Shown here piece by piece: positions 10,481 to 58,600 of a stretch of DNA of 64,000 bases (its first letter is position 1; each line of letters opens with the position of its first letter). The stretch spans positions 434,001 to 498,000 of the forward strand of contig RQOL01000618.1 of assembly GCA_013076295.1 (NCBI GenBank), read 5' to 3'. The notes beneath the pieces were generated by a model. The model made no database searches. It was not told where the DNA came from and was given only the letters and a program-made list of their open reading frames with translations. The position numbers and the translations under genes are program-made. This DNA comes from Sanderia malayensis. Taxonomy: Eukaryota; Cnidaria; Scyphozoa; Semaeostomeae; Pelagiidae.

Positions 10481-10673
10481 TCCCATTTTAACGCCGAATT
10501 TAATATATTTAATATACAGGCATCAACGATCTTCTAGTGGTGTTAGGTCAAATCAAAACAAACTCAAGTAGAAATGTTCGTCATAATAATTAAAAAGTAA
10601 ACGTGAGTAAGGTACATGAATTTGCAATCAGCTATTTAACTACATGTTGTTCATGCATTACACAGCAGCCAAT

Positions 10674-11498
10674 CTATTTTCCCCAGCGTCTGAAGCTGAC
10701 GCGTCTGAAGCTAACTCTTCTGAAGCGGTATCTTCTGTAGCTGATGCGTCTGAAGCGATATCTTCTGTAGCTGATGCGTCTGAAGCGATATCTTCTGTAG
10801 CTGATGCGTCTGAAGCGATATCTTCTGTAGCTGATGCGTCTGAAGCGGAATCTTCTGTAGCTGATGCGTCTGAAGCTAACGCGTCTCAAGCGAACACGTC
10901 TGAAGCTGACACGTCTGAAGCTGACACGTCTGAAGCGAATACGTCTGAAGAAGGGTTTCGGGTCTGCTTGCTCGGACAAATCTTCATTTGGATCTCCTGG
11001 CAGAACAAATGGTCAAATATTTAGTTAATGTAACGTTAATTGTGCTCATGAAATTTACATATTGAATTATAAAATTGACTTACTGTTTTCTATTTCAGTC
11101 TCATCTTCATCCTCACTTGGCTCTTTTGATTCATCAGCATCGGACTCAGATTCTGGATCAGCATCGGAATCGGATTCTGGATCAGCATCGGAATCGGATT
11201 CTGGATCAGCATCTTCATCGCCATCAGATTCAGCATCAGATTCGGCATCAGGGGCTTCTTTTGCTTGATCTTGCTGTTCCTCTGCCGCACCTACAAGATA
11301 AAACAACATTTCATCGAACTTTTCCGCCCAACGTATCTATCATACAAGTCAATAGCTATGATAATATACAAAACAAATATAGTAAATTTGACGATATTAT
11401 GAAAAGGCGATAGAGAAAGGTTAATAAAACGCCGTAAATTTACCGAGTTGGCAGAAAACCAATCCGAGCAGAAGGAGTGCCAAGAAAATCGACTTCAT
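10674..11498 (-). CDS. Unrecognised secreted precursor: signal peptide, acidic domain, Arg-rich pentapeptide repeats
   Basis: Three minus-strand exons, 11498-11444, 11290-11084 and 10996-10674, total 585 nt (194 aa). All junctions are GT-AG, phase 1 both times, closing exactly on TAG. Exon 1 encodes a textbook signal peptide, MKSIFLALLLLGLVFCQLG. Exon 2 (residues 19-87) is strongly acidic, with EEQQDQAKEAPDAES and three DPESDSDA-type units. Exon 3 encodes a linker (88-103) and then 18 pentapeptides of the form (F/Y/L)RR(I/V/Y/F)(S/R), ending FRRWGK. The acidic half could neutralise the cationic half, as in antimicrobial-peptide or other cationic-peptide precursors such as Hydra arminins; biomineral or extracellular-matrix protein is an alternative. 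RRIS and RRVS also fit basophilic kinase sites. No homologue is recognised. The repeats read as an Ala/Ser/Glu frame on the plus strand, but only the minus model supplies a signal peptide and in-phase splicing. Confidence 0.7.
10690..10950 (-). repeat. Coding minisatellite, 15/30-nt units
   Basis: The DNA is built of 15-nt units ending CTTCAGACG on the minus strand. In the middle are near-identical 30-nt pairs (plus-strand unit includes GCGTCTGAAGCGATATCTTC). It encodes the Arg-rich pentads of the gene at 10674-11498. The outer units are more diverged than the central ones, as expected for recent central expansion. Confidence 0.85.
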
Positions 11499-11550
11499 CT
11501 TCAGCTGGAATGAGCCACAAATCAATCTGTCAATTCAAATGAAAAGAAAA

Positions 11551-11563
11551 TATTATATATAAA
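11551..11563 (-). promoter_or_regulatory. TATA-like element upstream of the acidic/Arg-rich gene
   Basis: On the minus strand this reads TTTATATATAATA, 53-65 nt upstream of the ATG at 11498. It is compatible with a TATA box, but AT-rich background makes chance likely. Confidence 0.25.
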
Positions 11564-12356
11564 TTGTACTGCACATTAAATCTTGCAGACGAAGAGCTAT
11601 TTAACAAATTCAATGTTTTGTAAAAAATTACAAACCTGTGTGCAGCAAAACTATGTAGTCCACGAATTCGTTACAGCTTTCACCGAAACGATTAGTGGAG
11701 TGACTTGATTGGCAATGAGCGGTGAAATTTATGTGGCATTAAACAATAGAAAATTCCAATCGTCATTGGAATAACAGAGGAAGAACTTCGCAGAACTTCC
11801 CCCTCAAAACAAAGCAGTAACCAAGTGACAAATATACAAACAAATGCAAGCATAATTTCATTTGTTGCTTGTTTGATTTAAAATCAAATCGTTTTTCTCT
11901 TACCCTTTGTTCGAAGGAAGTATTTTTCTCTTTATGAGAGAGGAAGTTTTGGTAAGAACGTCTTTGTCAGTAACAATGGGAAATTTCATTGGCCGCCGAA
12001 GTTGAATGAAAGTTTTGAATGTTGACGCATGTGAAGCGAGTGCTGAGCTGATTTTTGGACCTTGCAATCTTTTTAAGGGCTTATATACACCCCAAAATGA
12101 CATATCGATTTTTTTACGGATTTTTTTTTATGTGTATCACCATGAACTTATTTTGAGTGTTTTCTGATGAGTACAAGTATATTTTTCAAACTCAAGCTAC
12201 TTAATTTACACCGATTTCAATTCTTTCACCAGTGGCTAAAATTACGATGTTTTCCCTCACATTATCAATCAATTTCCGTTGCCTTCAATTAAACACAAAA
12301 TGTTTAGCAAATTTTGGAAAAAATAGAGTGTTCATGATTTTTGTTCAAAATCACGT

Positions 12357-23300: not shown

Positions 23301-26300
23301 TGATACAGGGTGGGCCAAAAACATCAACCCCCTAAAATATTTTCAGGAAAGGCATTTGTGAACAATATTTTTGCAGATTTCTATCATGCAATATTCAACC
23401 CGAAAAGCCATCTTGTGTAAAAATATTTTGTAGTTGTGCTATGTTTTGTAGTTATGTAGTTATATTTTGTCATTTTTGAGCAGTTCTAATGTGAAAATTT
23501 CTAATCACGAAAACTAATGTTATGTTGGAAGAGCAATATGTTTTGTCATTTTTAATTTGTTCAGAGGAAAGCAATATGCCAAAATATCACAAGGAAATAA
23601 ACATTTCAACCAAAATTTGTGATTTGAGAAAGGTTGGAGAAGACAGAGAATCATTTCTGAATTTCCTAACAAAAACATGTCTATTTGCCTGAGAATAACA
23701 TACATAAGGGAGTATGTTACCCTGTTTCATAAACTAAAGGGAACCCAAGAAGTTACAGTGATTGTATCTTTAACATAGGTTTTTGTAGTGTAACTAGAAT
23801 ATCACCAACAATTCTGATTAAAATCTTTTCTTTTTTTAGGAGCAAAGGTTCAAAGATCTCTTTAATAATATATAGAGCACGTTTCTCTGATCAAGGTTAC
23901 TATCAATGCAGGGCTACTAATAAATACGAGACAACTTTTAGCAAGAAAGGATTCATTAAAGGTATGTTTTGTCCTCATCTTTTTTATCTATTTTTAGTCT
24001 TACTTGATTTTTATCAAGCAATTGGTTTACTTTGCTGTTTCGGTTAACTTTGTGGCAAATTAGTAAAACTTTGGTTATTATTTATTTAACAGTTCAAAGA
24101 CCAGCTTCAAATGGGTGAGTGATTCTGTTGCATGTGCTTTCAATATTGTTTTCGTTTTACTAACCTCAGATAAATCTGTCGACTTTTATCAAAAGACAAA
24201 GTTTTAATTTTTTGAAATTCAATAATTATCAAGTGATTTAAAGCCTTGTTTGATACATATTTTTGTGAGAACTTCTTAAGCCAAGACTTTATATTTTTCC
24301 TTGCTATTTATTTTCAAATTTCCATTAATTTTCCTTATTTTAAACCTCAGTCTTCTTATAGACACATTATTGTTTCGAAAATATTGTGATGGTTTTTCCC
24401 AATAGTATTGTTTCTGGAATGAATTTTGATTTTATAGGAAAAACACAGAAAGAAGACTAAATGCAGCCAATACGCCAATCTGCACTTTGTATAAGAATGA
24501 AACATGTCAAAATGTTTTAAATCCCCATCGACCTATTTTTGCTGTCAGTCGTCAGAGTTTTCTATTCAAGGAAAAGAAGTTAAGAGGTGACGAATTAAAT
24601 ATTCTTTTTTAATTTTGTAATGCAAATAATGACAACCAAGTAGTGGTCATTATTTGCAAATTATTTTTCGAGAATTCTCCCATTCTTCGTCTTAGAATGT
24701 TATTAAGGTATTTTCTTGACTTTGAGCATACATAATCATGGAAATAATTGAAATCTTTAATGCAATATCTAATGCTGTCATTGCAGATACCTACAGATCA
24801 ATAATAAAACAGAATCTGATATCATCATCATGCCGTCCATATGTTTTACCGTTGCTGTGTCACACGCAGTTCCCTTATTGTGCACAGAGAGTTCCGGATG
24901 CAAATAGGTTAATTCAGCTATGCCGTGCCGATTGCCTTAAACTTCAGACTGATGTTTGTGCCACTGAATATATAGCTGGCAAAGCTGATTCATTCTTTTC
25001 TGCTGAGTTGTTGCCAGACTGCTCCAAACTGCCTATGAAGAATTGCATTAGAATCTATCCGAAATCAGCAAGCAATGATTACAACAACGAACGTCTCTTT
25101 CCTGTTGCAACGTGTAAGTACAATTTCGGGTCTTATACGCTTTTGCCTAATTGCAGCAATATGCATTTGTCTGCCCTTTTGACAATTGCATTTGCCAATC
25201 GTCCTCTCACTGTGACTTTTAAATGTGTCAATTTGACAGTTTGTCCTAAATTTATCTCGTACCATTTGACATAGAGGACTTGTATGGCCACCTTTTTAGT
25301 CACAAGGTTGTCATTTACCTCGGCTAAAACATCTCATTTTTCGTCAATCAACTTTAATAAAATTAACCAAGGCGTTTCTTCAAGTGACAGTTTTACACAG
25401 CTTGTGTGTCATTGACACTGTCTTGATTTTTAATGATTTGCTAAATTATTGCTTTCATCTGCTTTCAATTTTATCCTTTGCGGTTGTTGTAAAACATAGA
25501 ACGACCGAAGATCAGTTTCCTGTTCACACTATCATGACTGTGCGCTATTGAAAGTGGTAGACGAATGGTTCCAATTTTTAACACACTGTATAAGCTTATT
25601 AGTAGTGAAAAGATCAGAGATTCTCAGCCCATGAAGGTCGCTTGTAAAACTCTAACCCCACCGTAAATGTGGATAAGGTTTTGTTTTAAGTCGTTAAAAC
25701 ATCTCTGACATTGTTTGACGTCTGAAATTGTGACATGTTAAACTCTTCCCACAATGCAGCGAGTCAGCCGTTCATGATGCATTGCGGGTATGAACAGAAT
25801 TAAACTAACAACTGCACATGACAAACATATGACAAGTTGTACACGACAACACAAGTTGACGACGACACGGGTTTCTTCTTACGTGCCAGTAGACAGAAAA
25901 TCTGTTAAAATGAATTCTTTTGGGGCGATTTTGGTCTTGGAAATTTGAGATGAGGAGAATAATCCTGAAATTGTGGTGTTGTAACGGTTGAGAGCTTTTG
26001 GTTGAAAGTTAAAACTCCTCCGTAGCCAACCTGCCCCCGTCCACCATATTGTGTATTCACACACCAGGCTTTGTTAGTCCGGTGTTGTGAGTTGCCCATT
26101 GTCATAGGTTTAGAGATGGATTTAGAGCAAAGAAGCCGACTCCGTAATTTTAATTATTCAAAACGCTGTCACTCTTTGAAGTAAACGATCTTTTCGCTTC
26201 TGTTCGACTCGACTGATAATCGCACCTTGCTTGCATGGTTGGCAAAGTCTCGTTCACTGATCTGACATTTCATTTACTTTTTTACACATTGCACGTTCCG

Positions 26301-29300: not shown

Positions 29301-32300
29301 CTCCAAAAGAAATAATATTCATAAAACAGCGAAATCATGATACGTCGGGCCAGGAGTAACTCGAACCTCGGGTAACTAAGGCCCTTTTGCATCCCATAGA
29401 ATACTTTGCAAGTGTTTTCTAGCGGTAAAAAACTCAATATACCTGCGCAGTGCAGGGTGCAGGGTGCAATAATAATAAAAATGATCACGATCATAATGAC
29501 GAGCATGATGACGTTGATAAGGTTTCCATGCTTCGTTGTTTTAGCTGTTGTTATGTTGTGATATATTCACATTTTGTTGCTATATTTGATGGATGATAAC
29601 AAACACAGACGTTACAATAGCAGAATAGTCTTTCTGCATTTATATGAAATGCTTTAAAATTGTTCTCTCTTACTACCGGTGGTTTCAGATTGCGCAACGC
29701 TTCTGAAAAGGGTGGAATTTTGATTACGGTGCAAATGTCAATGTCGTGGCTCCACAGGATTTCGATTACTGCCACCACAGTTTCCTTGCTTACGATACGA
29801 AAACCTCAGTGATTTGCAACGACAGCGTGCTTTTTGCGACAAAATTGCTTGCTCGAAAAGCATTTATTTCTGTTCCTATGCTCACCAAACTGCGTTTCAT
29901 ACTTCAAAACAGTGTCTTTGACTTCGCTACAATAATTACAGTGAAAATAATGCAAATTTGGCAGTTTTAAAGACATGGGTCGTATTTCCCTAGGTCGTAT
30001 AGTCGCCCGTCCGAGAGTCCCCGAGTCGTGGGGTCAACCGATTAGAAATACCCATCAGATGTACGAAGTGTTCAGGATGGTTTCTTGATTTGAAAAGAAT
30101 AATAAAACGCAGCTTAAGCTCGAACAATTAGCGACGATTGTTCTGTTAAGAACATTACTTTGTCGTGTCTTTACGAAGAGGAAAGTTTTTATTTTATTTG
30201 TTGAATAGGATAAGTGTGGCTCTGTCTAATTGCATTTCACTACCTCAAATAAGATTTACCACAATCCAAGCTCCTTTTTTCAATTTTAATAATGCATGAA
30301 GATTTATTGGGCACGTCTGCTTCATTTCGGTCTTATTTTATCTTTTTAAACGACTTAGTGGAGGAAGTTGTCACCGGGGGATCAAAATTATACTGCCGCA
30401 ATCATATTTCTCTTCTGCCAAATTCTATGAAAATTCTACACAGGACAAAGTAGGAAGTTATACAATCGAACCTTCACTAACGACCACCTCTGGATAGCGA
30501 CCAATAAACTTGAGAGTCTCGAGCGATTTGCCAGCCTTTGTTGTGAGGTCTGGATTAGCATCTATCTCCTAATAGCGTTTAACGGTCGCCCTGCTCGGTC
30601 CCAATTGAGAAATTGTTCTTGGATTCGTGCATACGCATGAAAGTTGAAGAGAGGAAACATGTTATCGATGAGGCGTGTAAAGAGGAAAGCAGAAGGGGAA
30701 ATTGAATTATTATAGGTCTATGTATTTATCATTTTATAACTTAAGAATGGAAATTGAGTTTTTTGTAATGATATAGTATTCCTATGCTTGTAATCTTTTA
30801 TCTTAATTTTATTATCATTAATCGCAATATTTTTCCGTTGCAAATTTCGAAGTCTTTTGAAATTTTTCATATATTCAAGTTTTCTGCTTCATAGTTGGTG
30901 CTTTGTTTATCTTTTTTCTCTTACTGTAAATACGCTTTTGATTTCGAGTTGCGCTTGCTTATACTGTGTTATATTTCACATTTGCATAATCTTTACTTGA
31001 CATTATCATCTTTTCTTATAGATGCACCTGCTGTTTCAAAGTGGCCAGGGAAAGCAACTGAAGGTCGGTCGAGTTCATTGTTCTCTCATCCAATTCATTC
31101 TTAACTTTAAGAGAAAAATCTAGCAATCGTTTGTTATTATTATTTTGTTTTTCATACAGAGAATGTACCGCAACATATTCAATGGTCTTCCGTTGTAGAT
31201 GAAGGTGAGCAAAATTATGCAACACTTGTTAAATATTTGGTTTTTATTTCTGGATGGATGAATTGCTCTTATGCATTTAAGTATTCCCCGTGATTGGACA
31301 AGGTAGTGCAGCTGTATTTAGCTAATGATCATTTGATAAGCCCTTCCCTTCAACCAAGGCTGCAACGAATCACGAAGCAATTGCATTTATTGCACGATTA
31401 CACATTTTTTCATGAAGAACTTCTTTATGAGGAACCTACAGGTAGAGGGCCTAAAAATTTAAAGAATTTATACTACTAAAGGCACTCCCTCTCTAAGGAA
31501 CTATTCAAAATTGAGCATTTTAGTACCACGAATAACTGAAAATCACACATGTGTGCCATGCCATATGCCACATGATACTGCTTGGTTGACATTGTTTGAT
31601 TGATTTCAAAACAGGCCCTGAAATAAGGAACTTTAAGAACCAAGCCTTAGGTGGACTCTTTATATAGAAAATCGTGTACGTAAAATACACACAAGTTACT
31701 GCGCAGCTCAATCTCAAGCAGAGTTGTCCTTTCTGTATTTATGTAATTCACTGAATGAACCCTACCAACAAATTTAACGACCACATCATGCACACGAGTG
31801 GGTCATTTTTAGGTTCATTTTTATTTTGAGCAAATTTGAATTTTATTCGTGTGCACACGAGCCCAAATTGCATCGGTAGAGGTATTGTAGTGTGCATTGT
31901 CCAAATTGTGAGAATGGTCTGAACATTGTGTTTGGATGTATTAAGAGATTGGTAATTTTCTTCTTGCAGATGACAATTGTTTTTTGGACCGAGGTGATGA
32001 CTATCGCGGAATGTTGAACATAAGTGAATCTCATTTTCGATGCAAGCGATGGGATGACACGAAATTCTCATTTCTCAGCAAGAAATACCCAGAGTTGCAT
32101 GGTGGACATAATTTCTGTCGAAATCCAGGTAGAACTAAAGACAGGCCTTGGTGTTATGTGGATTACAATGGCAAAGACATTGCTCAGTTCTGCAGCATTC
32201 CTAAATGTGGTATGCATAGACTGTCTATTCTTTCAATTGTCTATAGAAACTTTCTTTGCTTCTGGGAATATTTTATCCCCAAGTAATCGACCTGTTTGCT

Positions 32301-34210
32301 CAAGATTTTTTCTGTTTATTTCATTCTATTGTTTTGCATAAAAGTACAATAAAACACGCTCGAACATGAAACAGGAACATGCACACATGACTCGAATTTT
32401 CCTTTATTTAAGTCCATCAAGTCCATAAATTATTCTTATTTGATCTTTATTATTTAAAGGATTATTATTAAATCCATTGATGAGTCTTATTTGACTTATT
32501 TTACCAGCTTTGCCAAAAAAAGTCGAAGTCGTGAGCATACTTTGGACAATCATTCCTTGCCTCGTATTCGCTCTGGCATTGTCTCTTGCGATTATCATCA
32601 TTGCATGGCGACGCCACAAGCAAATCCTCTATCGCAGTCCAACCTCGATTCCGATCACACCAATTCAGCCAAGAGTAAATCCAAAGGTATCAAATCCATC
32701 GCTTTTCATTATCCTTCATCCAGTTGAATATTTCTAAAGGAGCGACGTCAATTATAAGCACTGTTTATTCTTGTTTTAGATTCCAGAAATCAAACGTGAA
32801 GATCTTTGTGATTTCCATTTGATGGGTGAAGGTAATTTTGGTCGCGTGTATTGTGCTGACATGATAATAAATAAGGACAATAGAACGCTGAATTCAACTG
32901 TTGCTGTCAAGATTCTGATAGAAAAAGCGACAAATAAACAGACTGAGAATTTCATACGAGAAGCGGAGACGAGGGTGAATTTGAAGCATGAAAACGTGGC
33001 TGCGTTGATTGGTGTGATCATGAAAGAGGATCCACTCTGTTTGATATACGAGTACACGGAATTCGGTGATCTTCACGAACACTTGCTACTTCATTCACCG
33101 AACTTCAGCGGTGCTCATGCTGGGGATGATTGTGAACCATTGGACTATACTGATCTCATAGACATTTGCACTCAGATATGTAATGGTATGTTATTCCTGT
33201 CCTCGCAATCGTTTGTGCACAAGGATCTCGCTACACGTAATTGTCTTGTGGCCGACAATGGTGTCATCAAGATTAGCGATTTCAGCGGCTTACGGGATTT
33301 GTATGCCGGCGATTATTACCGTGTGCCAGCACGAGCGCCGATCCCCGTGCGCTGGATGAGTCCAGAGAGTCTGTTGCTCAGCTCTTATTCATCGGCCAGT
33401 GACGTATGGTCGTTCGGTGTAGTCATGTGGGAAGTTTTCTCCTACGGTCTGCAGCCTCATTTTGGCTATAGCAATCAAGAAGTGATCGAGAGAATCCAAA
33501 CGAGACATCATCTACCGTGCCCTGATGGTTGCCCGACAACCCTGTTTTCAATCATGAAGGACTGTTGGGTCGAAGATGCAGCTTGTCGCATCGGATTCAA
33601 CGACGTCATGACAAAACTGAAAGCCATGAACGAACCGGCAAACATCTCGTACATGAACGGACATGCTAGAAACGGACACATGAATGCGATTCCTTATCAT
33701 ATGAAAGCTACGCACCCAGCAATGCACCAAACTGGCTCTGGACACATTTCATCGAGGAGCCACTCTCCATCTGGACACAGCATGCATCACAATGGCTCGG
33801 TGCGCAGTCATTCACCTTCTGGCCATAGCATACCACCACCTGGCCACAGCGTACACAGCATGCCCCCGTCAGTCATCGAAGGTCACTGTCCATCCATGAT
33901 CAGCCATTCTGACATGATCACCCATCGTGCAATGTCATTAGCAAGTCATCCAGGCTCGTTGATAAGTCATCCAGGATCTATGAAAAGTTATCCACCTTCA
34001 ATGTTAAGTAATCACATTCCCTATGTGAACAGTCAAGCAATACCTGCGCATATGTATCACAGTCTACCACGCACAATGATGAACTACCCAGCTCATCATA
34101 ACAACATGCCATCTATTCATAGCCGAGCATCATCCGTTGCTAGTCATTCCACTTCGGATAGAAGCTATGAGTCCAGAAGCTATTCTTGCTCTAGCAACAG
34201 TTACACATAA
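20400..34210 (+). CDS. ROR: ROR-family receptor tyrosine kinase (Ig, Frizzled-like, kringle, TM, kinase)
   Basis: Coding exons: 20400-20448, 23083-23269, 23840-23961, 24093-24114, 24438-24586, 24787-25113, 31022-31063, 31160-31204, 31970-32209, 32508-32686, 32780-34210. They total 2793 nt, 930 aa; human RORs are about 940. The signal peptide is MWKSNILAFATIILWT. An Ig domain follows (VKLRCRVTG ... DQGYYQCRA), then a Cys-rich Frizzled-like domain (CHTQFPYCAQ, LCRADC), a kringle (RPWCYVDYNG), a membrane helix (about CLVFALALSLAIIIIAW) and a kinase in one exon. This order is diagnostic of ROR, a Wnt5-type receptor. Kinase features: GEGNFGRVY, VAVKIL, and HKDLATRN as in other RORs. The DFG position reads DFS, where vertebrate RORs have DLG, so activity is doubtful. 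The C-terminal tail is rich in His, Ser and Pro. Confidence 0.93.
22846..22912. repeat. CATGCATG / CATACATC simple repeat
   Basis: Imperfect tandem CATG, CATC and CATA units inside ROR intron 1. Confidence 0.7.
25114..27708. other. Left part of the 5.9-kb ROR intron, no recognisable gene
   Basis: Only short unsupported frames were seen. The rest of the intron is the foldback element at 27719-30053 and unremarkable AT-rich sequence to 31021. Confidence 0.5.
27719..30053. mobile_element. Mutator-like foldback element with ~830-bp inverted arms and 10-bp target duplication
   Basis: The left arm (27719 to about 28551) is nearly identical to the reverse complement of the right arm (about 29229 to 30053), with a central spacer of about 680 bp. 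The termini are GGGTATTTCTAATCGGTTGA and its inverse. A direct repeat ATCAGATGTA flanks both sides (27709-27718 and 30054-30063). A 10-bp duplication, very long terminal inverted repeats and a leading G fit non-autonomous Mutator-like (MULE) transposons. The 74-75-codon frames mirrored in both arms are a by-product of symmetry; no transposase is visible. Arm similarity is high, so insertion or arm homogenisation is recent. Confidence 0.85.
31388..31685. mobile_element. TTCTTATAA-family MITE, diverged copy
   Basis: The left part has GATTACACATTTTTTCATGA and GAGGAACCTACAGGTAGAGG. The latter block is close to GGAACCTACATGTAGAAGG in the copy at 42184-42590. It lies in the ROR intron before the kringle exon. 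Its ends are approximate. Confidence 0.45.
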
Positions 34211-34464: not shown

Positions 34465-35640
34465 TTTCCAATTTATTCCGTCTGTTTATCTGTTTGTTTA
34501 CTTGACTTTGTATAATTGAGAACCATTATTTCAAGCCATGTAGCCATGTAGATGTGTTTTGTTTACTAGTTTGTTAATTATTGAATTTGAAGGTTTCAGA
34601 ATTGAGGTTAGTTGTTATGCTTCAATATTGCAGAAACAATCACGATGTTTTTAATCTCTAAACTCAAAGTTTTGATCACCAAATCGATTTATTATTCTGT
34701 TCTCTTCGATTATTAAAACTACTATAATGATAATAATATTGCACACAGCATTGTGTTTTAGAGAATAGAGTATTCAGGTTGTATTGTTTTGAAATTTTGT
34801 ACTCATGAAGTTGTTCGTGCATTACAAATGTTTTCATTTTGTCTTTGATCTTTTTTGTAATCTTCAAAGCAAAATCACAATAACACGACCTTATTATCTG
34901 CTTACAAAGTGCTGTCTGTCTATCATAACATTTATTGTTTTATTCTTCCTTCGTGTTTCCATTCCGATTCATGACTGCATTCACTTTGTACCTGAGCATT
35001 CTTTTGAAACACACTTAATTTTTCATAAGAAACCAACCTCGACAGTCAGTTTTGCGCTCCAGTTTCTTAAGTCATCAGAAAACTTCAGGTCCCAAAATTC
35101 TTAAAAGTTGCTTAGTTTTTTGTTTCACGCCATCCAGCCAAAATTATCAATGAAAACATGAATTTTGGATTTTTGCTTATTTCAGTTTCTCAAAATGTTT
35201 CCCTTGAGCAGTGCAGTTTTTTTAACCCTTCTTGTTTTTGAGTGATGGCTTCTGATGGACAGTTTCGTAAAAAAATAGGTATTACGCACAAAGCCGTGGG
35301 GCCTGTGACAAATTTCTAAATATAGCAAAAACTTGCGCACAAGTATATAAAGTGGACTTGGAACGATTCATTCGACGGAAGCACATGTTGTCTTTATTGG
35401 TTGATGTGAATGACGACGAATGGCCTAGCCTGGTAGAGTAGGTTGCATTTTGAGCTTTGCCTTGGGTTGGTTCGGCAAAGTAGTAACCGAATAAGCATTT
35501 TACTCATTACTACAAGGTACTACATCGATAAGATTTATATCTGCTTGAGTTATAGGAACAGTGCTTTATAGCGTGATTTTTAGTGGCCTGTTGAAGAAGA
35601 TTGTGATTGTTTTGTTATCATCCATCAAATCAAGTGAACG
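34465..35640. other. Intergenic interval between ROR and HMG-CoA synthase
   Basis: No gene seen. Around 35015-35115 there is a TTCATAAGAAACC ... TTCTTAA motif set resembling the TTCTTATAA MITE family. The promoter and 5' UTR of HMG-CoA synthase must lie near the right end, but no clear element was seen. Confidence 0.45.
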
Positions 35641-38600
35641 ATGTCACAGACGCAGCAGGATAAATGGCCGGAAAATGTTGGAATTGTTGCAATCGAAGTT
35701 TACTTTCCTTCCACGTATGTTTCACAAAAAGAATTAGAAAAATATGACTGTGTCAGTGAAGGAAAGTATACAATTGGACTAGGCCAGCAGGCAATGGGTT
35801 TTTGTGAAGATCGAGAAGACATCAATTCAATGTGTCTAACAGCTGTTAAAGGGCTTCTGGAGAAAAACAAAGTTGCCATGTCCCACGTTGGAAGACTGGA
35901 AGTTGGCACAGAAACTATAATCGACAAATCCAAGTCTGTGAAAACAGTACTTATGCAACTATTTGAAGAATCAGGCAATACAGACATTGAAGGGATTGAC
36001 ACCACGAATGCATGCTATGGAGGAACTGCAGCTTTGTTCAATGCATTGAATTGGATAGAAAGCAGTTCATGGGATGGTAGGTTATTAATTCCCGTGGAAT
36101 AGCTTTAGCATACAGATGTCTCTGTTGAGGGCAAGCTTCAGCCCCAGGGTCATTTGGACCAAGATTATAAGCACTAATAGAGTGCCAGCATTGTTTTATT
36201 GCCACATGCTGGCTTCACAGTAGTATGATGGCATAGAAGGCATGCCTTTGCTATCAAGAGACTTTGCAGGCTGGACAGGCAAACTAACAGTAGTAAAACA
36301 AAGCTTGCATGCTATCTGAATATTTAAAATCTCTGGCTCATACAATTTGCCACAGAAAGTCACCTATACAGTTGCCATATCAAGACATCTAATTGCTAAT
36401 GCTTATTTAGCAGTATTTCGGAGACATTGTTGCTGTAATTTATTGGTCTGAAATTAGGGTTGACAGATTGAAGCTGACAGCTGATCCAAAATTAGAAAGC
36501 TACTAATCATGGGGCAAGTTGACATTAGGTTGAGTTGTCAATTAAGTGCTACCTATAGCAGTTTATGTGTAAGTGCTATAGCTATTGCTGTGGGATTTTG
36601 TGCTATTAAGATCCTATCATTGTTCAATAATAATAATACTGCTTTAGACTAACTGCTATTGTTGAGTCTATGTTATTTCATTCAAGTTACTTTTATTTAT
36701 TGCCTCTGTTTTTTTAAACGTAGGCAGATATGCTGTTGTTGTGATGGGAGACATTGCAGTGTATGCAGAAGGAAATGCAAGATGCACTGGTGGTGCCGGT
36801 GCTATAGCATTTCTTGTTGGAAAAGATGCACCTTTGGTAATTGACAGAAGTAAGCTCAAAATCTCTTATGTAGATCTTCAAAATCACTGCCCCACCTAAT
36901 CAGACTTTCTTACCAACTTTTGTGCATAGCATAACATTGCACTTCTGTCAGTGTGAATGTTTGGTAATTTAAAACTTTTTAATTGTTGCTAAGGAAGCCC
37001 CTAGAAAGCTTTAGTGCTTATTGCCCCTAGAAAGCTGCAAGTTGGGAAATTGCTAAGAAAGTCTGGGTACTGACCTGTGAAGAACCTGTGAAAATATGTG
37101 TAGTAACATTGTTTAATGATATTGGAAATCAATGTTCAATAAAAAATGTTCCTTTGTTCATGTGTTTTTGCTATTTTTCGCAGAGTTAAGAGGCAGCCAT
37201 ATGCAGCACGTCTATGATTTTTACAAACCGGACATGGTATCAGAATATCCAGTTGTTGATGGAAAGCTATCAATAAAATGCTTCCTGAATGCTTTGGATA
37301 AATGTTATGAACGTTACCTGAAGAGTGCAGAGAAGCATCTTGGTAATGATAAAAAGATCAGTACACTTGAAGATGTAGATTTCTTTATATTTCACACACC
37401 ATTTTGCAAGATGGTTCAAAAGTCACTTGCAAGGTGCATGTTCCAAGACTTCCTCAACCAGAAAGATGAAACCATTAAAGAAAGTGAAGACAAATATGCA
37501 GATTTGTTAAAATACAGGTATTCACATTTTTGTCTTCATCTTCTCTTTATCTTCTGATATTTTCTTATATAAATTGTGCTTCTATCCTATTACAATCGTC
37601 TCTCCCTATCTCGAATCGTCGCATCGCACGGGAAATGAAAATTTGTTCGACATAGCGAGAGTTCGAGATAGCCGAACTAAATTCACCCAACTAGACAACA
37701 AGGGGACATGGGAATCTGTTTGAGATAGCGAGTTGTTCGAGATTGTGCGAGATTGGACCGTATGCTGAATACAATTTTCCTAATTATGATCATTTTTGGT
37801 CTTTGCACAACGACTAAATTATACTTTTGTTTGAAAAGGGGTATAAGTCTGAGAGAGACACTAGAAAATGATGTCCTTTATAAAGAAGTTGAAAGGTCAT
37901 CTGTCAAATGCAGCAACAATTTGTTTAACCGAATAACAAAGCCATCGCTGCTCCTTGCTCAAAACATTGGCAACATGTATACTCCATCCTTGTATGGAGG
38001 CTTAGTAAGCCTTCTTATCAGGTATGTTTATTTTTGATAATCTGCCTAAATTAGGACAGTTTGCAACAAGAAATTAATTCTCTATCTAACTTGCATGTTT
38101 GCTTTATTCTTTGTCATTGTCTGCTCTGATGAGGAAACTATAGAAAGTATTTTACGTAGCCTTGCACTTGTTGTAAAACGAGGTTTCCACGAGGCAGTGA
38201 AAGCAATTCAGAAGTTATAACAAAACATGGATATGTATATATAAATATGATTGAATAAATGCTGTTACTTACATGATGCTAAAACTATGGTTCACGTGAG
38301 CCCTTACAATCACGTGGGTCTTGATTCTTGCTCTTGACCACAACTAACATAACTATTACAACAACGCTTGCTATTAAGATCAATGTGATAGTAGTTATGA
38401 TAATAATAGTAATAATGACAATAATAACGTGTTTTAACAGGATAACTTATCAGTGCAATCAAATAAATCTATATACTGTTATCATTAGGGTCCTGATAGC
38501 TAAGCATTTATCATTAATGGTAATAATAGTAATAATGACAATAATAACGTGTTTTAACAGGATAACTTATCAGTGCAATCAAATAAATTTATATACTGTT

Positions 38601-39365
38601 ATCATTAGGGTCCTGATAGCTAAGCATTTATCATTAATGGTAATAATAGTAATAATGACAATAATAACGTGTTTTAACAGGATAACTTATCAGTGCAATC
38701 AAATAAATCTATATACTGTTATCATTAGGGTCCTGATAGCTAAGCATTTATCATTAATGGTAAAATATCTAAAACTGAGGAGAATATCCACAGGACTGGG
38801 GCGAGTTTGGAGTTATCATATTTATAATCCATACAGATAATTTTGATACATAATATACTTTACATTACATAATTCTACACTACACATCGTAGAATTCAAC
38901 TGTACTTGTGCTTAAGCCTTTAGTAATTCTCCCGTTTATTCCGTGCTATTACTTTGCTTCTGTCAATTTTTTAGCATTGCTGAAGAAGATTTGATAAACA
39001 AACGTGTCGTTTTGTTTTCGTATGGCTCTGGTCTTGCTTCATCAATGTTCTCTTTAACAATTTGCCCTGATGAAGTTCACCGCTTGAAGTTGTTAAAAAT
39101 TATCTATCAAATGCAAAAAGTCAACCAGAAATTAGAAGAAAGAATAGAGATAGAACCAGCAAGTTTTGTTGAAATTCTCAAGAGAAGAGAGGACACTCAT
39201 CATTTATCTGATTATGAGCCATCTGCTTCAGTTGACAATTTGTGGCCTGCCACATATTATCTCACCCATGTCGATAAGCAATTTCGTAGGTTCTACGCAA
39301 GAAAACAGAGAGAACGAAACGCTTTAAATTTAAATTCTTTGGGAAGTCGTTGTGATTTCCTTTAG
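35641..39365 (+). CDS. HMGCS1: Hydroxymethylglutaryl-CoA synthase
   Basis: Coding exons: 35641-36076, 36724-36849, 37184-37517, 37839-38021, 38975-39365. They total 1470 nt, 489 aa; human HMGCS1 is 520 and has a longer tail. The enzyme condenses acetyl-CoA with acetoacetyl-CoA to HMG-CoA, entering the mevalonate pathway (or ketogenesis for the mitochondrial form). No mitochondrial presequence precedes the start [17 protein letters not shown], so the cytosolic type is favoured. Motifs: [17 protein letters not shown] with general base Glu91, [13 protein letters not shown] with nucleophile Cys125, [18 protein letters not shown] with the conserved His, [13 protein letters not shown] and REDTHHL near the C-terminus. 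The acceptor at 37838 has a weak pyrimidine tract and follows a small repeat. Intron 4 holds three 120-bp tandem repeats. Confidence 0.95.
37590..37762. mobile_element. Possible small MITE in HMG-CoA synthase intron 3
   Basis: It begins TACAATCGTCTCTCCCTATC and ends GTGCGAGATTGGACCGTA. Related blocks (TCGAGATAGCC, GATAGCGAG, TTCGAGATTG) occur in both orientations. The terminal symmetry is imperfect, so the limits are approximate. Confidence 0.4.
38401..38760 (+). repeat. Three tandem 120-bp repeats
   Basis: The lines starting at 38401, 38521 and 38641 are almost identical, each exactly 120 bp. Each contains a TTTTAACAG/GATAAC splice-acceptor-like site. The unit lacks stops in one frame and its length is a multiple of three, giving a spurious 170-codon frame. 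It lies in HMG-CoA synthase intron 4. Confidence 0.95.
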
Positions 39366-52600: not shown

Positions 52601-55600
52601 TTGTTTTCGTAATTGAACGGCTGCTTGGAAAAGGAACTTGGTATGCAAATGCTAATGGTATTGCTGTTGACTATTTGGAGCTGGTATTTTTTTTGCTACA
52701 ACGCATTTCGAGGATTTCCATGACTATCTTGTTGCTTTGCTAATACTTTTCGCCTTCATTCGTCGACATTTCCTTCTTTCTTGCGTGTGAGAAGTGTTAA
52801 CATACTGCACTTTGTAAACGCAGCCTAGGATCGGATCGAATAGTTTAAGATCAAGTCAATTGTTGATTTGGTGATTCAAAAGCATTTTCAAGCGTATCTT
52901 CAACTTTGACCGATTGCCAAATTTTGAAGAAGAAGATTCGCCATTAAAATGGATCTACGTTCTTGTACACTGGCGACAGAAGTTGCGCAATAACTCTGGA
53001 GAGTTATCCAAAAACTTACTAACGGCACAGTATATCAAAAATGCGTCACCAATGTAATTCCACTTTGCCACCTGTTGGTTTAACTTATTTCAGTTTTATA
53101 GCATCAATTGCCTTTTCCCTATTTGCGTTTGTCGGCAACGGAACTATAGCCATCCTCGTCCTTGTTGATCCGATGAAGTCACTGCGCACTCCGGCAAATT
53201 ATTTCATACTGAATCTTGCGTTCAGTGACATGATCGTGGCTTGTATAACACTGCCAATGTCCGCTTGGGCTCATTACGTGGAGATCACCGGCTTAGAACC
53301 AGCTACTGTCAATGTTCCCCTTCATGTGGCGTTTTTCGTGTCAGTTACCGCGTGCTGCCTCAGTGTTATTGCTCTCACTGTCGATAGATACGTTGCAATT
53401 CGCTGGCCTATTGCGTACAGGAGGAAATTCAGATTGCGACGCTCGGCATGGGTGTCCATATCAATCTGGACCATAGCCGGTGCGCTGTCGCTTGCGTATT
53501 TCCTACTGGGGTATATCACCTACTTGATGGTATTTGCCAATGGAATTCTTCTTCTCACATTGATGGTATTGACTGCATTGTATATCGCTGTGCATCGTGC
53601 TTTGTCCGGACACGAAAAGGAACTCGTGTCAAATCATTCACAATCGCGAAGACGCATCTCAATATCCTTAGAACATAGACAGAAGAAAGTTACACGCGTG
53701 TTCTTGGTCGTCATTATCGTGTTCCTCTTGTGCACAACCCCAGCAGAGATTTCAATATACATCATCAATTTCTGCTCAAAGTGTTCGTGCACCACGATAC
53801 ACGTTCTGCGAGATCTCCAGCTGATGTTTGTCCTATCTACCAGTGCAATGAATCCATTTATTTCTACCCTGCGCCTTCCCACTTTTCACAATTCGCTGCG
53901 CAAGATAACAAGCCAGCTGTTGTCGCGCTTGCCCTTCTTCAGAGACCATCCATTGGACAATTCCTCGGAGGAAAGGTCGAGAAGCCCTTCGCCATATTTC
54001 GCAAAGTACAACGGCGCTTGTGCCACAATTCAACCCTGTGTGACATCACGGAAGTTATCCCCCCTTCCTCTTGCCAGTGCTTCGGCGATATCTCCAATTA
54101 GATGCTCTCAGACTCAGATGTTGTAGTTTTCAGGCCCGTAATTAACTTGTACATTATTAATCTGTGTTTTTGAATAATGTTGTTCTTATCATAATTATGA
54201 TGAACGTTTGATGTCATAGTTGTGAAACTAAACGCATGTTGTAGAGACGCTTTGCATATCAATTGAAATGGTCCCGAGTCTTGTACTGAAAATAAACATA
54301 ACAAGTAGATATGGCTGTCGCTGTTAAGGTTATAATGCTAACATGTTGGCTATAAATGACTTATTGTTTTCTCTTCAGTTTCGTTTTCTATTGATGCTTA
54401 ACACACGTATACAACTTACGTGTGCGCATCTCTAGCAATGCAGCTTGTTTAATCACGCGCGAATTTCACTTCTTCGGGAAGATGAGTTGAATTTTTACAA
54501 CGCAGAATCTGAGCATTTAAATCGCGTCGCGGCATATTTAAATCATTATAGTTTACATTTTAAGGGTATCATATATCTTTGACGACGATAATTACAATAT
54601 ATTGTATGCGTTAGCTACTTTCACGCAAATTTGTGAAGATAAAATGGATTATAATAAACTGACTTAGCTTTTCCCAGCTTTCATTGTAGTTGTATGTTGT
54701 ATGATAGACTTTTTCCCTCAAGGAAGTGATACTATTGAAATTAATGCAATTGATAGCCGTTCTTTTATGCACGACTTTGTTTACAGCTCTTACGACATTC
54801 TTCTTGCTCACATTGGTGTAATTATCGGTATGCATACACAGTTAAAATCATACTATGCAACCAAATAACGTGTTTTTATTTGTGTTGATATTGATGAAAC
54901 TTGCAAAAGTTTTGCTTTGATACTTGAATTGAAGAATACTACTCTTCTTGGAGACATTGCTGATACTGTTATGAAGGCCTACGACAATACTAAATTATAG
55001 TAACATGATTATTCCATATATCACATATATGTTAATTTAACATGTTTTCTTTGCATATCATATGGGTGTTAATGTATTACGGCTTCCTGATGAATGCTTT
55101 TTCTTTGAAGTTTCTTTTTATTTTGCTCAATATATTGTTCTCTTTTTCAGATGCAATCGTGAGAAATGATAGTAGGAACCCAAGCGAAGCTGGAAATTCA
55201 CCACCGACAACCTTATCCGTTAAAGAATCGTCGCAAAACATTTCAGGCGAAGAAAGTAAAGAAGGTGAAATTGTGATATCCTCTCTGGAAGATGCAAGCA
55301 ACTCCTGTCAAACATCTTCCGACTGTAAAGACATCAAACTAAGCTTTGATCATGATTCCCATTCACCATCAAACGGTCTTACTTGTTGCAAATCACTGGA
55401 GTCCCAAAACGTTTCTTGCTGCCCTTCGGACGAAAATATGCAAGTAGAAAATCAGTCGAATAAGGTGGAAGTCCAGTCGCCTCAAAGTAGTGACGTTTTG
55501 TATAGTAGTGACGTTTTGTATAGTATTGAAGAGTCGGATAAAATATTTGAGTCAAACAAAGCATTGGATGCAGAGAAAGGAGAAGGAAGTGAAGAGGAAG

Positions 55601-58600
55601 TAAAACAACAACAACAACAACAACAAGATGACGCAGATGGAGGGAATAAAGAAATAAGCTTTCTTGTTAAAACTAACACCGACAAAGATGAAAGATGTGC
55701 AAGTCGAGCCAGTGAAATTATACCTGAGGATGAAGCTACTGAAATATGCCATGCATTGCTGGAGAATTCATCTAAATCCGTGAAATTATGCGAAGACGAA
55801 GAAGCCAACGACAGACTTTGTATTTCTATCAAATTGGATCATTTACGGCAGCGCAACCGGTTGGTGAATACTTCGCCATCGCAAATCGACAATGGATGCA
55901 AATTGGTGTCGGTAAGATCAGAAGAGAATAAAAGCAATGAGACAGTATCAGCTAGCTCTATGAACAGACGCTCGTGTAATGAAATAACAACTAGTCATGT
56001 TAGAGGGCGAAGCTCTAAACATAAACCATCGAACTCCAGCAGTTTATTATTAAAGCGTCGAACAACACGACATAGCAGGCCGATCACTGAAGTTCCTGAT
56101 AAACTAGAGGTCTCGATTAAGCTAGACAATTTGAAACCATCCTCACAAGAAGAAGATGATGATAATAATCGTGATGATAAACCATCGTGCGTCTTGGTAG
56201 CACAGACACTCAGTGAAGGCTGGATGATGCAAGAAGACATTTCAGATAATATAAAGAAACGGTTTTGTGTTGAGAACATCAATGTTGACCGCTCTGCATT
56301 CGGTGTGATAAAGCACAAGATCATTGATGCTGGTGGTCACGTTACTGAGAAGCTTGAAATTCTAGCTGGTAAAAATACTTCAATTAGTTTCAGCAGTGCG
56401 TTAGCTAACAACGATAAATGTATTGTTGTGGATCCACTTCAAACAGTTGCTAGCCTTTCACAAGGAACGCGGCAGGAGGTTGGGTCTACAGCTGACGATG
56501 TTAAGTCGCATTCTTTGCTACCAACTACTTTCGATCAAACAGCCACTTCGCATCAAGCTGATATTCCGATCTCTGATAGCAGGAACGGAATAGACAGTCG
56601 TAAAGATAGTGTTGCACAGGTCGAACCTACACTTTCTGTGGCGCTTGCAAACAGTGAAACAATGGAAAATATTGACCATGATAATGGTAAAGAGTTCCAT
56701 CTTGATGGCGGTTCACATGATGTACTTGTAGATTGCAAATCAAGCAAATCAGAATGTAATGTTTTATGTGACCGACGGAAGCAAGACATCACGAATGATA
56801 ATTTTTCAACAGTTGAGCCGAAAGTAATTGGTTCTGCTGATAGAAGCATGAAACATGAAGACTCACACAGTGACACGGGTTATTGCAGCAGGATATTAGC
56901 TGAAGAGATTTCTATTGATTCAGGTTGTACCACGGCAGAGTTTGGTTGTTCACGATTCGTCTCGACAGCCGTAACCAATGAATTAGTCCACGAACGGTGC
57001 ATTGAACGAAATAAGAGCTCTATCGATATCAATGTTGTTGCTCCTGGTGAGAAATATCCATTGCTGGACACAATTGCCGAAAAAAATGCAGAGAATTTGG
57101 AAAGCAGTGGTGAAGATGATTTAAGTTGCAGTGACCGTTCGCAGACGCACAGCAATAGTGATGATGATAGTGATAGCATTAGCAGTTGTAGTAATGGTGA
57201 ACTGCTTAAAGTCTCTCCTTCTCATGGCGATTATGAAGAAGTCACGTTCGCAGATGGTCGACCAACTCTGTATCCATCATCTTCGAGTGAAACACAAGAT
57301 ATTTTTAAAAATTCAACAAACGTATGCCTTGAGATATTGAATAGCGACATGTCCAGTTCACTCGAAAGACGTCCTGAGAGGGAAAACATGTGCTCGGCAT
57401 ATGCAGGACATTGCCCTTGTGACCAATCTGACATTTCTTCAGCTGGTATCTCAAAGGAGAGTTTACTGTATTGTACACCCTACGCTGATGAATGCCAGAA
57501 TGTCAAATCTGTTTTTCAATCTTCGGGTATGAAAGATTCCAGGATTTTCACCGATAAGGATGATGTGTTAATTGACCAGAATGATATTGTTCGTAATGAC
57601 AGAGACTTTGAGCATGGCATGGCAGATGATGAACGTGCCGACAGATGGGACTGCATTCAACAACCTGAAGCTGAATCATACAATGACGTCGCACCGTTTT
57701 TACCACATCATGACGTGCCTAAATTAGAAAACGACCCATTTCTAGGTGCGGATCAACAGAGTTTCATTGAAGGAAGTAATTCCAGGTTTTCGTCGACATT
57801 CATGGACGATAAGCTTTCAGATGGACCCTACTTGAGCTCTTCGTCGCCAATCAGTGAAGCGGAGTGTTCGTATGATGTACAAAGCGGCCAATTTGACGGC
57901 AGCGCGCAGTTGAGTGAGATGACACTGAACAAAATCCAATCTTCGAAGACCATTAGTGAATGCTACGATGACAGTAGTGATAGCAGTACAGACGATGGGA
58001 ATAGTTATCACGATGACAGTGTCAGCTCGGATTCTGACAGTGATAACAGTTGCAGTGGCAGCAGTTCGTCGCACAGCGCCATGCAACGACACGATGATTA
58101 TAGCGACAGTAGTGAAAGTAATTCCGAGTCTGATGAGAGTGCCCTTGGTTCCTTGGAAAACGACGACGTTAATGATGGTTTCTGTGCTGAAAAACGTGAA
58201 CACAAACTGTCTCCGGGAATAATCAAGGAAATTGGTTTTCCTGAAGACTCTGTATGTGCTATTGAACGCAAGGAATGCAGGGAGTTCTTCATGGGGAAAC
58301 CCTCAAAATCCCCCGCCAAGTATATCAATGTGAGGAATTTCATCATTCGCGAATGGAAACTGATTAAGCCACTGTATCTTACAAAGAACTCAATAAGAAG
58401 CAAGGTGGACCCGGTAGATGCAAACGCTGCCGGCCGTATACACGTGTTTCTTGAGAACCATGGGGCGATTAATGTTGGCTGCACTTCCAAGAGCAAGTGG
58501 GTGGAGCGAATGGAAAAGAGGAGAGAGAAGTTTCTACACAACAAACGATCAGGCGTCTTCACAGAAAGACAAACAATGGAAAGCAACGACGATCTGATCC

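Follow-up and report, generated by a model that had tools for sequence, protein, structure and literature searches.

A short gene on the minus strand of a jellyfish contig codes for a protein in which an acidic part is followed by a block of arginine-rich pentapeptides, and this raises the question of which function such a charge-segregated product may have. The gene occupies positions 11498-10674 of a stretch of 64,000 nucleotides (GenBank assembly GCA_013076295.1, contig RQOL01000618.1, positions 434,001 to 498,000), here called the window. The original prediction, made from the letters alone, had described a secreted precursor in which an anionic pro-region shields a polycationic peptide, either antimicrobial or signalling, with mineral or matrix binding as a further option; a cnidarian source had been presumed, and the DNA is indeed from Sanderia malayensis (Scyphozoa, Pelagiidae). 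The reading that we favour, with a probability of roughly 65%, is that of a scyphozoan family of precursors of amidated polycationic host-defence peptides with an anionic pro-region, a proposal based on architecture and association. What would be new is the unusual arginine repeat and its modular use, within a known type of antimicrobial peptide (AMP) precursor.

The gene and its product

The gene consists of three exons separated by GT-AG introns of compatible phases, and its spliced product of 194 aa contains, in this order, a signal peptide, an acidic stretch and 18 xRRxx pentads, ending in FRRWGK before the stop codon. Exon 1 (11444..11498, minus strand, as all the following features) starts with ATG and encodes the signal peptide MKSIFLALLLLGLVFCQLG, with its hydrophobic core; the last codon, interrupted by the donor CTCG/GTAAAT, is completed in exon 2. 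After intron 1 (11291..11443, 153 bases), exon 2 (11084..11290, with borders TTGTAG/GTGCGG and AACA/GTAAGT) provides the acidic pro-region, rich in Asp, Glu and Ser. Intron 2 (10997..11083, 87 bases) is followed by exon 3 (10674..10996), which begins at CTGCCAG/GAGATCC, closes with TAG, and contains the linker DPNEDLSEQADPKPF, the pentad repeat and the stop codon. The 18 pentads, of the form (F/Y/L)RR(I/V/Y/F/W)(S/R/G) with FRRWG as the last one, extend over 10680..10949, and the C-terminal Trp-Gly-Lys (10677..10685) is a predicted amidation signal, of the kind found at the ends of the intact paralog domains. Exon coordinates, phases and composition are those originally predicted, where the junctions 11443/11291 and 11083/10997 denote the outermost intron bases; the order of signal, acid and base also stands, but the Gly-Lys end of amidation type had been missed.

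Between the signal peptide and FFRR, that is in exon 2 and the linker of exon 3, 39 of the 83 residues are Asp or Glu and 4 are Lys or Arg; the repeat part contains 44 Lys or Arg and no acidic residue, and the single Cys of the protein is located in the signal peptide. These counts agree with the proposal of a precursor of the secreted type, in which the pro-region is anionic and the product polycationic. No Pfam family scored above its cut-off for the window protein, consistent with the earlier remark that no family could be recognised, and scans of the window for Rfam families and tRNAs gave no match. Both other minus-strand frames run into stops within exon 3, which rules out that another phase of this exon extends the acidic protein. 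A plus-strand frame coding for Ala, Ser and Glu is open in the window, but it was rejected, its residues being variable across paralogs where Arg is not.

An expanded gene family

The S. malayensis assembly searched comprises 184,004,477 bases in 918 contigs; the published one (Nong et al. 2020, PMC7305137) is given as 184,371,355 bases in 970 scaffolds, and the slightly smaller size suggests that the searched assembly is a filtered version of it. Including its own locus, the gene has DNA matches at 54 stretches of the genome, and exon 1 has 25 near-identical copies beyond that of the window, on six contigs and with 92.7-96.4% identity, two further copies being cut off by contig starts. The same three-exon gene recurs across the genome, introns included, and thus the window gene is more than a chance occurrence. 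A segment formed by the gene and its flanks (10547..11996) is common in full to 20 of the 25 array copies, with 84.8-89.7% identity in blastn over about 1,450 bases.

The copies lie in repeating array units of about 5.3-6.2 kb, in which reading of the translations also revealed fragments resembling reverse transcriptase and integrase. In the assembly, the frame of 14 array copies out of 25 stays open to the C-terminal GK, ten copies show frame breaks or premature stops, and one (contig C829, 6131934) has GG instead of AG at the second acceptor; this total of 11 damaged copies counts against the favoured reading, and the broken copies may be either real or due to consensus errors. Since several array contigs are small, the true copy number is uncertain. 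Near-identical units of 6.2 kb are present in C309:1-45000, which is inverted mid-contig (plus copies, then minus), and in C829:6128000-6190213, where the array runs to the contig end; this layout reflects either a recent amplification or a fold-back of the assembly.

Seven further contigs (C616, C613, C137, C580, C825, C479, C569) carry divergent paralogs, and C571 has one at a second locus. Contig C616 carries two clusters, with 4 and 5 exon 1 matches, and the match figures of C137 are identical to those of C613:2453569, of which it may be a duplicate. When the genome was searched with a DNA pattern encoding the linker motif DLS(E/D)QADP, 37 places matched; the reversed control matched none. 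Signal, acidic and basic parts are all present in the genes of the array, of C616 and of C613. The assignment of signal, acid and base to one exon each, as originally proposed, applies to the subfamily of the window; it fails in a second subfamily, described below, in which one exon encodes both acid and base.

Conservation of the arginine frame

Repeat domains were anchored at the conserved linker and the repeat start, yielding 31 distinct domains; 22 of them end in GK or RWG and are here called intact, and the remaining nine, which are frame-broken copies or lose the frame earlier, were excluded from the counts. The pattern xRRxx is found in 414 of the 414 pentads of the intact domains, 22 of which are RR by construction, as the anchor required RR in the first pentad. 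Arg is thus present at positions 2 and 3 in 828 of 828 cases, encoded by six synonymous codons at the former and by five at the latter. Of the 414 pentads, 407 have F, Y or L at position 1 and 323 have I or V at position 4. When the six frames were compared over the 414 units, fully conserved positions appeared in the RR frame alone (1.00 twice; best elsewhere 0.86), and the other five frames had stops in 5 to 258 units; zero stops in the RR frame is a result by construction, the domains having been chosen as open frames. Repeat number had been expected to vary between individuals; variation was seen between paralogs, with 7 to 61 pentads and repeat lengths of 36-306 aa in the intact set.

Two identical C829 copies, C137, C613:1156979 (L041) and C569 (L038) lay outside the anchor or the script input, and a table of 146 pentads, selected for RR, was excluded as evidence of conservation. 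Exceptions to the rule are found here: the identical C829 copies at 6172821 and 6178093 have the linker NPNEDL, the end FRPWGK and RR in 13 of 14 units each, and the repeat of C137 is degenerate, with SRRWW as its end.

For the window gene against three array copies, whole-gene dN and dS were 0.054 and 0.252, 0.066 and 0.201, and 0.034 and 0.187, respectively; in the repeat part the same comparisons gave 0.075 and 0.470, 0.071 and 0.287, and 0.030 and 0.304, figures that are rough, given that repeat alignments may pair non-homologous units. Outside the repeat dN was 0.037, 0.061 and 0.037, to be compared with an intron 1 divergence of 5/151 and 4/151 in two copies; intron 2 divergence was 7/87 in both copies compared. 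Non-repeat dN is not below intron 1 divergence, and therefore the constraint visible in this recent comparison resides mainly in the repeat. Across divergent paralogs, linker and C-terminus are also kept.

These data bear on the explanation that the locus is no functional gene at all. The pentad DNA is a 15-bp tandem repeat that might be open by chance, a view to which the ten frame-broken array copies, the changed acceptor and the weak constraint outside the repeat lend some support. However, divergent paralogs keep the RR frame while using synonymous codons, dN was lower than dS in each of the three comparisons, the linker and the C-terminus are conserved, and relatives have gene models in EukProt; this explanation is already largely contradicted and its likelihood is minimal. 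From the sequence comparisons, it can be considered as confirmed that the gene family is real and expanded and that its cationic frame is conserved.

C-terminus, charge and periodicity of the repeat

The C-termini of the 22 intact domains are RWGK in 17 cases, VRWG in four and RFGK in one, intactness itself being defined by a GK or RWG end; a Gly-containing end of amidation type is thus found in 22 of the 31 anchored domains. Ends of the WGK or RWG type, together with the many dibasic pairs, would also suit the precursor of a neuropeptide or hormone, from which an RRW-amide, or short peptides after cleavage at the RR sites, would be released, and cnidarians have many amidated neuropeptides (PMC6909153). 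Nevertheless, such a role appears improbable. The window precursor has one Gly-based site, at its C-terminus, and no internal Gly before RR; it falls short of the three copies used as a criterion in a survey of scyphozoan neuropeptides, whose script misses precursors with fewer copies, and the main text of that survey, which does not include Sanderia, contains "RRW" and "RWamide" 0 times (PMC6909153). Moreover, one paralog of the family is fused to an enzyme-type domain.

The net charge of the window protein is -35 in the pro-region and +44 in the repeat (about +43 once the last Lys is removed). For the longest of the copies read, the values are -25 for the acidic part and +161 for the basic one: the acid does not scale with the base, and thus full charge masking is impossible in this copy and could be partial at best. 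The longest repeats, of about 300 aa, exceed the usual length of antimicrobial peptides, a further point against the host-defence reading.

In the window protein no dibasic site, and in particular no KR, occurs between the acidic and the basic part, apart from the RR pairs of the repeat itself. The release of the basic part is hence unexplained in this subfamily, which also counts against the favoured reading. In principle, convertases might cut at every RR. These enzymes may disfavour aliphatic residues after the cut, and I, V or L follows 326 of the 414 RR pairs; a literature search for this aliphatic rule found no paper. If convertases do dislike aliphatic residues, the array would survive under conditions in which a KR-Glu site is cut, 88 pairs not being protected in this way.

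The window repeat has no alpha-helical amphipathicity, its hydrophobic moment at 100 degrees being 0.24 (shuffles 0.35 +- 0.07). Conversely, the moment peaks at 144 degrees per residue, with 0.85 versus 0.36 +- 0.07 for the shuffles, and the hydrophobic residues of the pentads are spaced by 3,2,3,2; such a strong 144-degree amphipathicity would be as in a beta-helix or a twisted strand. Pentapeptide-repeat proteins (PF00805, PF13599) likewise have a five-residue period with two hydrophobic positions, and both spacing and moments would fit their right-handed quadrilateral beta-helix, with an Arg surface binding nucleic acids or the bacterial surface. Indeed, the longest copy, on C613, exceeds both Pfam thresholds, with 61.9 bits for Pentapeptide_4 (threshold 38) and 24.3 for Pentapeptide (threshold 20.2); the window protein, however, remains below both (30.9 and 19.0, respectively), and therefore the family is not filed as a pentapeptide-repeat protein. 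In addition, no family was found for one C616 and one C580 repeat and no pentapeptide family for the C569 protein, the invariant Arg-Arg and the aliphatic I/V set the pentads apart, the pentapeptide-repeat fold prefers small residues where the pentads have I/V, and low-complexity periodicity can score alone. This fold is on balance rather unlikely, and it could coexist with an antimicrobial function.

Architectural variants and a lysozyme-like fusion

In the subfamily represented by C580, C825, C571:2349809 and C479, acidic and basic parts are encoded by one exon and separated by EEKLAKR/EPFFRR, a classic predicted convertase site; KR directly precedes EPFFRR, with acid and base on either side, in four out of the four loci read. 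A signal exon of this KR subfamily was seen in the C479 gene (L040) and in the EukProt models P0006 and P0007. Neither a signal nor an acidic part was found for C613:1156979.

A cluster of five loci at C479:4328580-4349489 matches a cationic peptide with eight Cys (CxxCxxCxxC...C...CxxCxxC). The two loci read, L044 and L045, contain a near-identical signal, an acidic part and the 8-Cys cationic peptide; in L045 this peptide runs into RR pentads ending in RIRRIRW, with no Gly, and in L044 it is followed by an irregular Arg-rich tail. The signal of this cluster is also near-identical to that of the nearby RR-pentad gene L040. Another architecture is that of the EukProt model P0004 (gene7187-7993_t), tentatively linked to the Sanderia set by its naming series, which comprises an acidic part, RR/LPRV Arg pentads (Pro variants), an amphipathic cationic helix with a moment of 0.54 at 100 degrees (shuffles 0.31 +- 0.09), a glycine linker and a Cys-containing domain for which Pfam and PDB sequence searches gave no match.

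The most distinct variant is found on C569 (3997391-3999200; L038, L043), where an open frame of 377 aa contains an acidic stretch with EKR at its end, then about 40 pentads within an Arg-rich part, and finally the first part of a Pesticin-type domain (PF16754, phage-lysozyme-like). In Pfam, where the cut-off is 25.8 bits, this domain scores 28.9 by itself, 39.4 when the next exon is added and 23.8, below the cut-off, when the query includes the whole repeat. It is the sole Pesticin domain found in the genome (26.2 bits), and none was found in the 14 control genomes; the window gene lacks it. The EukProt model P0008 is the same gene as this paralog (100% over the region searched). In P0009, a signal peptide, an acidic part and RRR repeats with Ser, Thr and Trp are accompanied by a domain identical at 124 of 196 positions (63%); its names, Seg3730.2 and GoldUCD, are presumably those of an Aurelia genome, and the gene set is thus probably that of another jellyfish. 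Glu369, Thr393 and Asp399 of P0008, which we take to be the catalytic triad of this domain type, are invariant in the six sequences aligned out of 23 matches. Four bacterial-type relatives compared are 36-46% identical to the C569-type domain and the other matches are mostly of bacterial type, which suggests that the lysozyme-like domain reached the jellyfish by gene transfer from bacteria.

These variants are relevant for the idea that the repeat is a structural or packaging polycation, not mainly antibacterial, whose Arg block binds a polyanion (poly-gamma-glutamate of nematocysts, glycans of mucus or mesoglea) or whose acidic and basic blocks form a coacervate or an adhesive. Very long repeats, of 53 and 61 pentads, strong blocks of opposite charge and a tandem amplification suited to bulk production are what it would lead one to find. 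It would predict neither the amidation-type end and the KR site, nor pentads behind a Cys-rich cationic peptide, nor a lysozyme-like domain fused to Arg-rich repeats in the gene sets of two jellyfish, and we judge it unlikely. Among the functions originally listed, the antimicrobial one is favoured over signalling and over mineral or matrix binding by three features: one paralog is fused to a lysozyme-like domain, sister precursors carry a Cys-rich peptide, and the genes have multiplied in tandem.

A candidate host-defence precursor

The host-defence reading is drawn from the layout of signal, acid and base, the RR conservation, the Gly end and the KR site; from the Pesticin fusion, the second jellyfish gene set with the same layout, the 8-Cys precursors and P0004; and from matching traits of Hydra AMPs and of myticalins. 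Starting from features that can be read in the DNA, namely the gene model, the family, the RR frame, the shared amidation-type C-terminus and the lysozyme-like fusion of one paralog, we infer processing, masking, target and killing as follows. The signal peptide would route the precursor to secretion, and the acidic pro-region would mask the arginine block in storage; a protease would then cut the linker between acid and base, at the Lys-Arg site in the divergent subfamily, and free the arginine block. A carboxypeptidase and an amidating enzyme might convert ...RRWGK into ...RRW-amide, giving a product of about 90 residues with a net charge of about +43 and with an Arg face and an aromatic/aliphatic face alternating every 2.5 residues, which would most likely bind and disrupt the anionic envelopes of bacteria.

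An anionic pro-region joined to an amidatable polycation would correspond to a standard design of stored host-defence peptides, and the window gene has a signal peptide, separate charged pro- and mature parts and membership in a clustered multigene family. In its working, the pentad family would resemble myticalins, Hydra AMPs and dermaseptins, as compared by their published descriptions. Myticalins of mussels are described as having a signal peptide, an Arg-rich Cys-free mature peptide (with PRX repeats in subfamily A), an anionic low-complexity extension, a dibasic site, an amidation Gly in many members and lineage-specific genes in tandem clusters (PMC12294457); of these traits, the signal, the Arg-rich product, the anionic part, the dibasic site, the amidation Gly and the clustering have counterparts in the pentad family. 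However, according to the same description, the anionic part is C-terminal in myticalins and N-terminal here, and the mature peptides of subfamilies B and C measure 17-38 aa, as opposed to a repeat of 36-306 aa built on the xRRxx unit. The arminins and periculins of Hydra, as outlined in PMC10945409, share with the pentad family a signal peptide, negative and positive halves and many clustered paralogues, which in Hydra are restricted to the genus; many Hydra AMPs are instead Cys-rich, and pentad Arg repeats are not mentioned in the part of that paper describing them.

The precursors of frog dermaseptins are reported to contain a signal, an acidic spacer, Lys-Arg, a cationic peptide and a C-terminal Gly amidation motif (PMC6151546), the same order as in the KR subfamily; the window protein has the C-terminal Gly signal and lacks Lys-Arg after the acidic spacer. 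The dermaseptin peptide is also short (23 residues, PMC6151546), unlike the pentad block, which has no alpha-helical moment. Among scyphozoans, the sole AMP isolated from tissue so far is, according to a 2025 review, aurelin, which is similar to defensins (PMC12194522); it has in common with the pentad family its scyphozoan origin and its cationic character, the antimicrobial role of the window protein being a prediction. The defence of exposed epithelia with no adaptive immunity would, on the host-defence reading, become directly testable in jellyfish. Aurelin is stabilised by Cys.

A broader proposal, put forward here tentatively and with more doubt than confidence, is that xRRxx pentads form an antibacterial module that can be reused, of a new structural class: an Arg-coated rod with 2.5-residue periodicity (beta-helical or extended amphipathic), which jellyfish would use by itself in amidated form, after an 8-Cys cationic peptide, and as the envelope-targeting arm of a bacterially derived lysozyme; tens of copies with 7 to 61 units would tune length and charge. 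If the host-defence reading is true, a true jellyfish would possess a large, genetically encoded arsenal of candidate AMPs, the same arginine repeat, alone and beside a phage-type lysozyme domain, would represent a modular architecture, and a regular repeat with natural length variants would offer a ready series for structure-activity work.

Database relatives and genomic surroundings

Two protein searches retrieved five EukProt models and one ENA frame, besides a chance match: the first gave one match among 751 scored candidates, the second six among 8000. Neither brought up an arminin, myticalin or aurelin by name. The product of the C479 gene L040 is contained letter for letter, as compared by eye, in P0003, and the remaining EukProt models were assigned to Sanderia by naming. 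P0001 was dropped after reading its sequence, as a chance match of acidic low complexity. No pentad relative assignable to another animal was present among the scored candidates, the databases being poor in animal genomes; PDB sequence searches returned nothing useful (one match with E 0.7; three at E 0.11 to 0.74; none in a third search), and a literature search, a weak test covering titles and the starts of abstracts, gave no description of an arginine-pentad family. In the ENA frame (P0005, 182 aa, from a contig of 2,667 bases), about seven units of the LRRVS/FRRVS type occur in a protein that otherwise looks unrelated; the repeat may be due to chance, or a different sample may have contained animal DNA.

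The surroundings of the gene are, from the reading of translations, an ordinary gene-dense animal context. Exons of kringle-like and receptor tyrosine kinase type lie at 31945-34207 of the window; together with a Cys-rich, frizzled-like exon located upstream of them (24726-25271), they probably belong to a ROR-type receptor. They are followed by HMG-CoA-synthase-like exons at 35638-39362 and, at 55036-60432, by an open frame of 1,799 aa with repeated similar segments.
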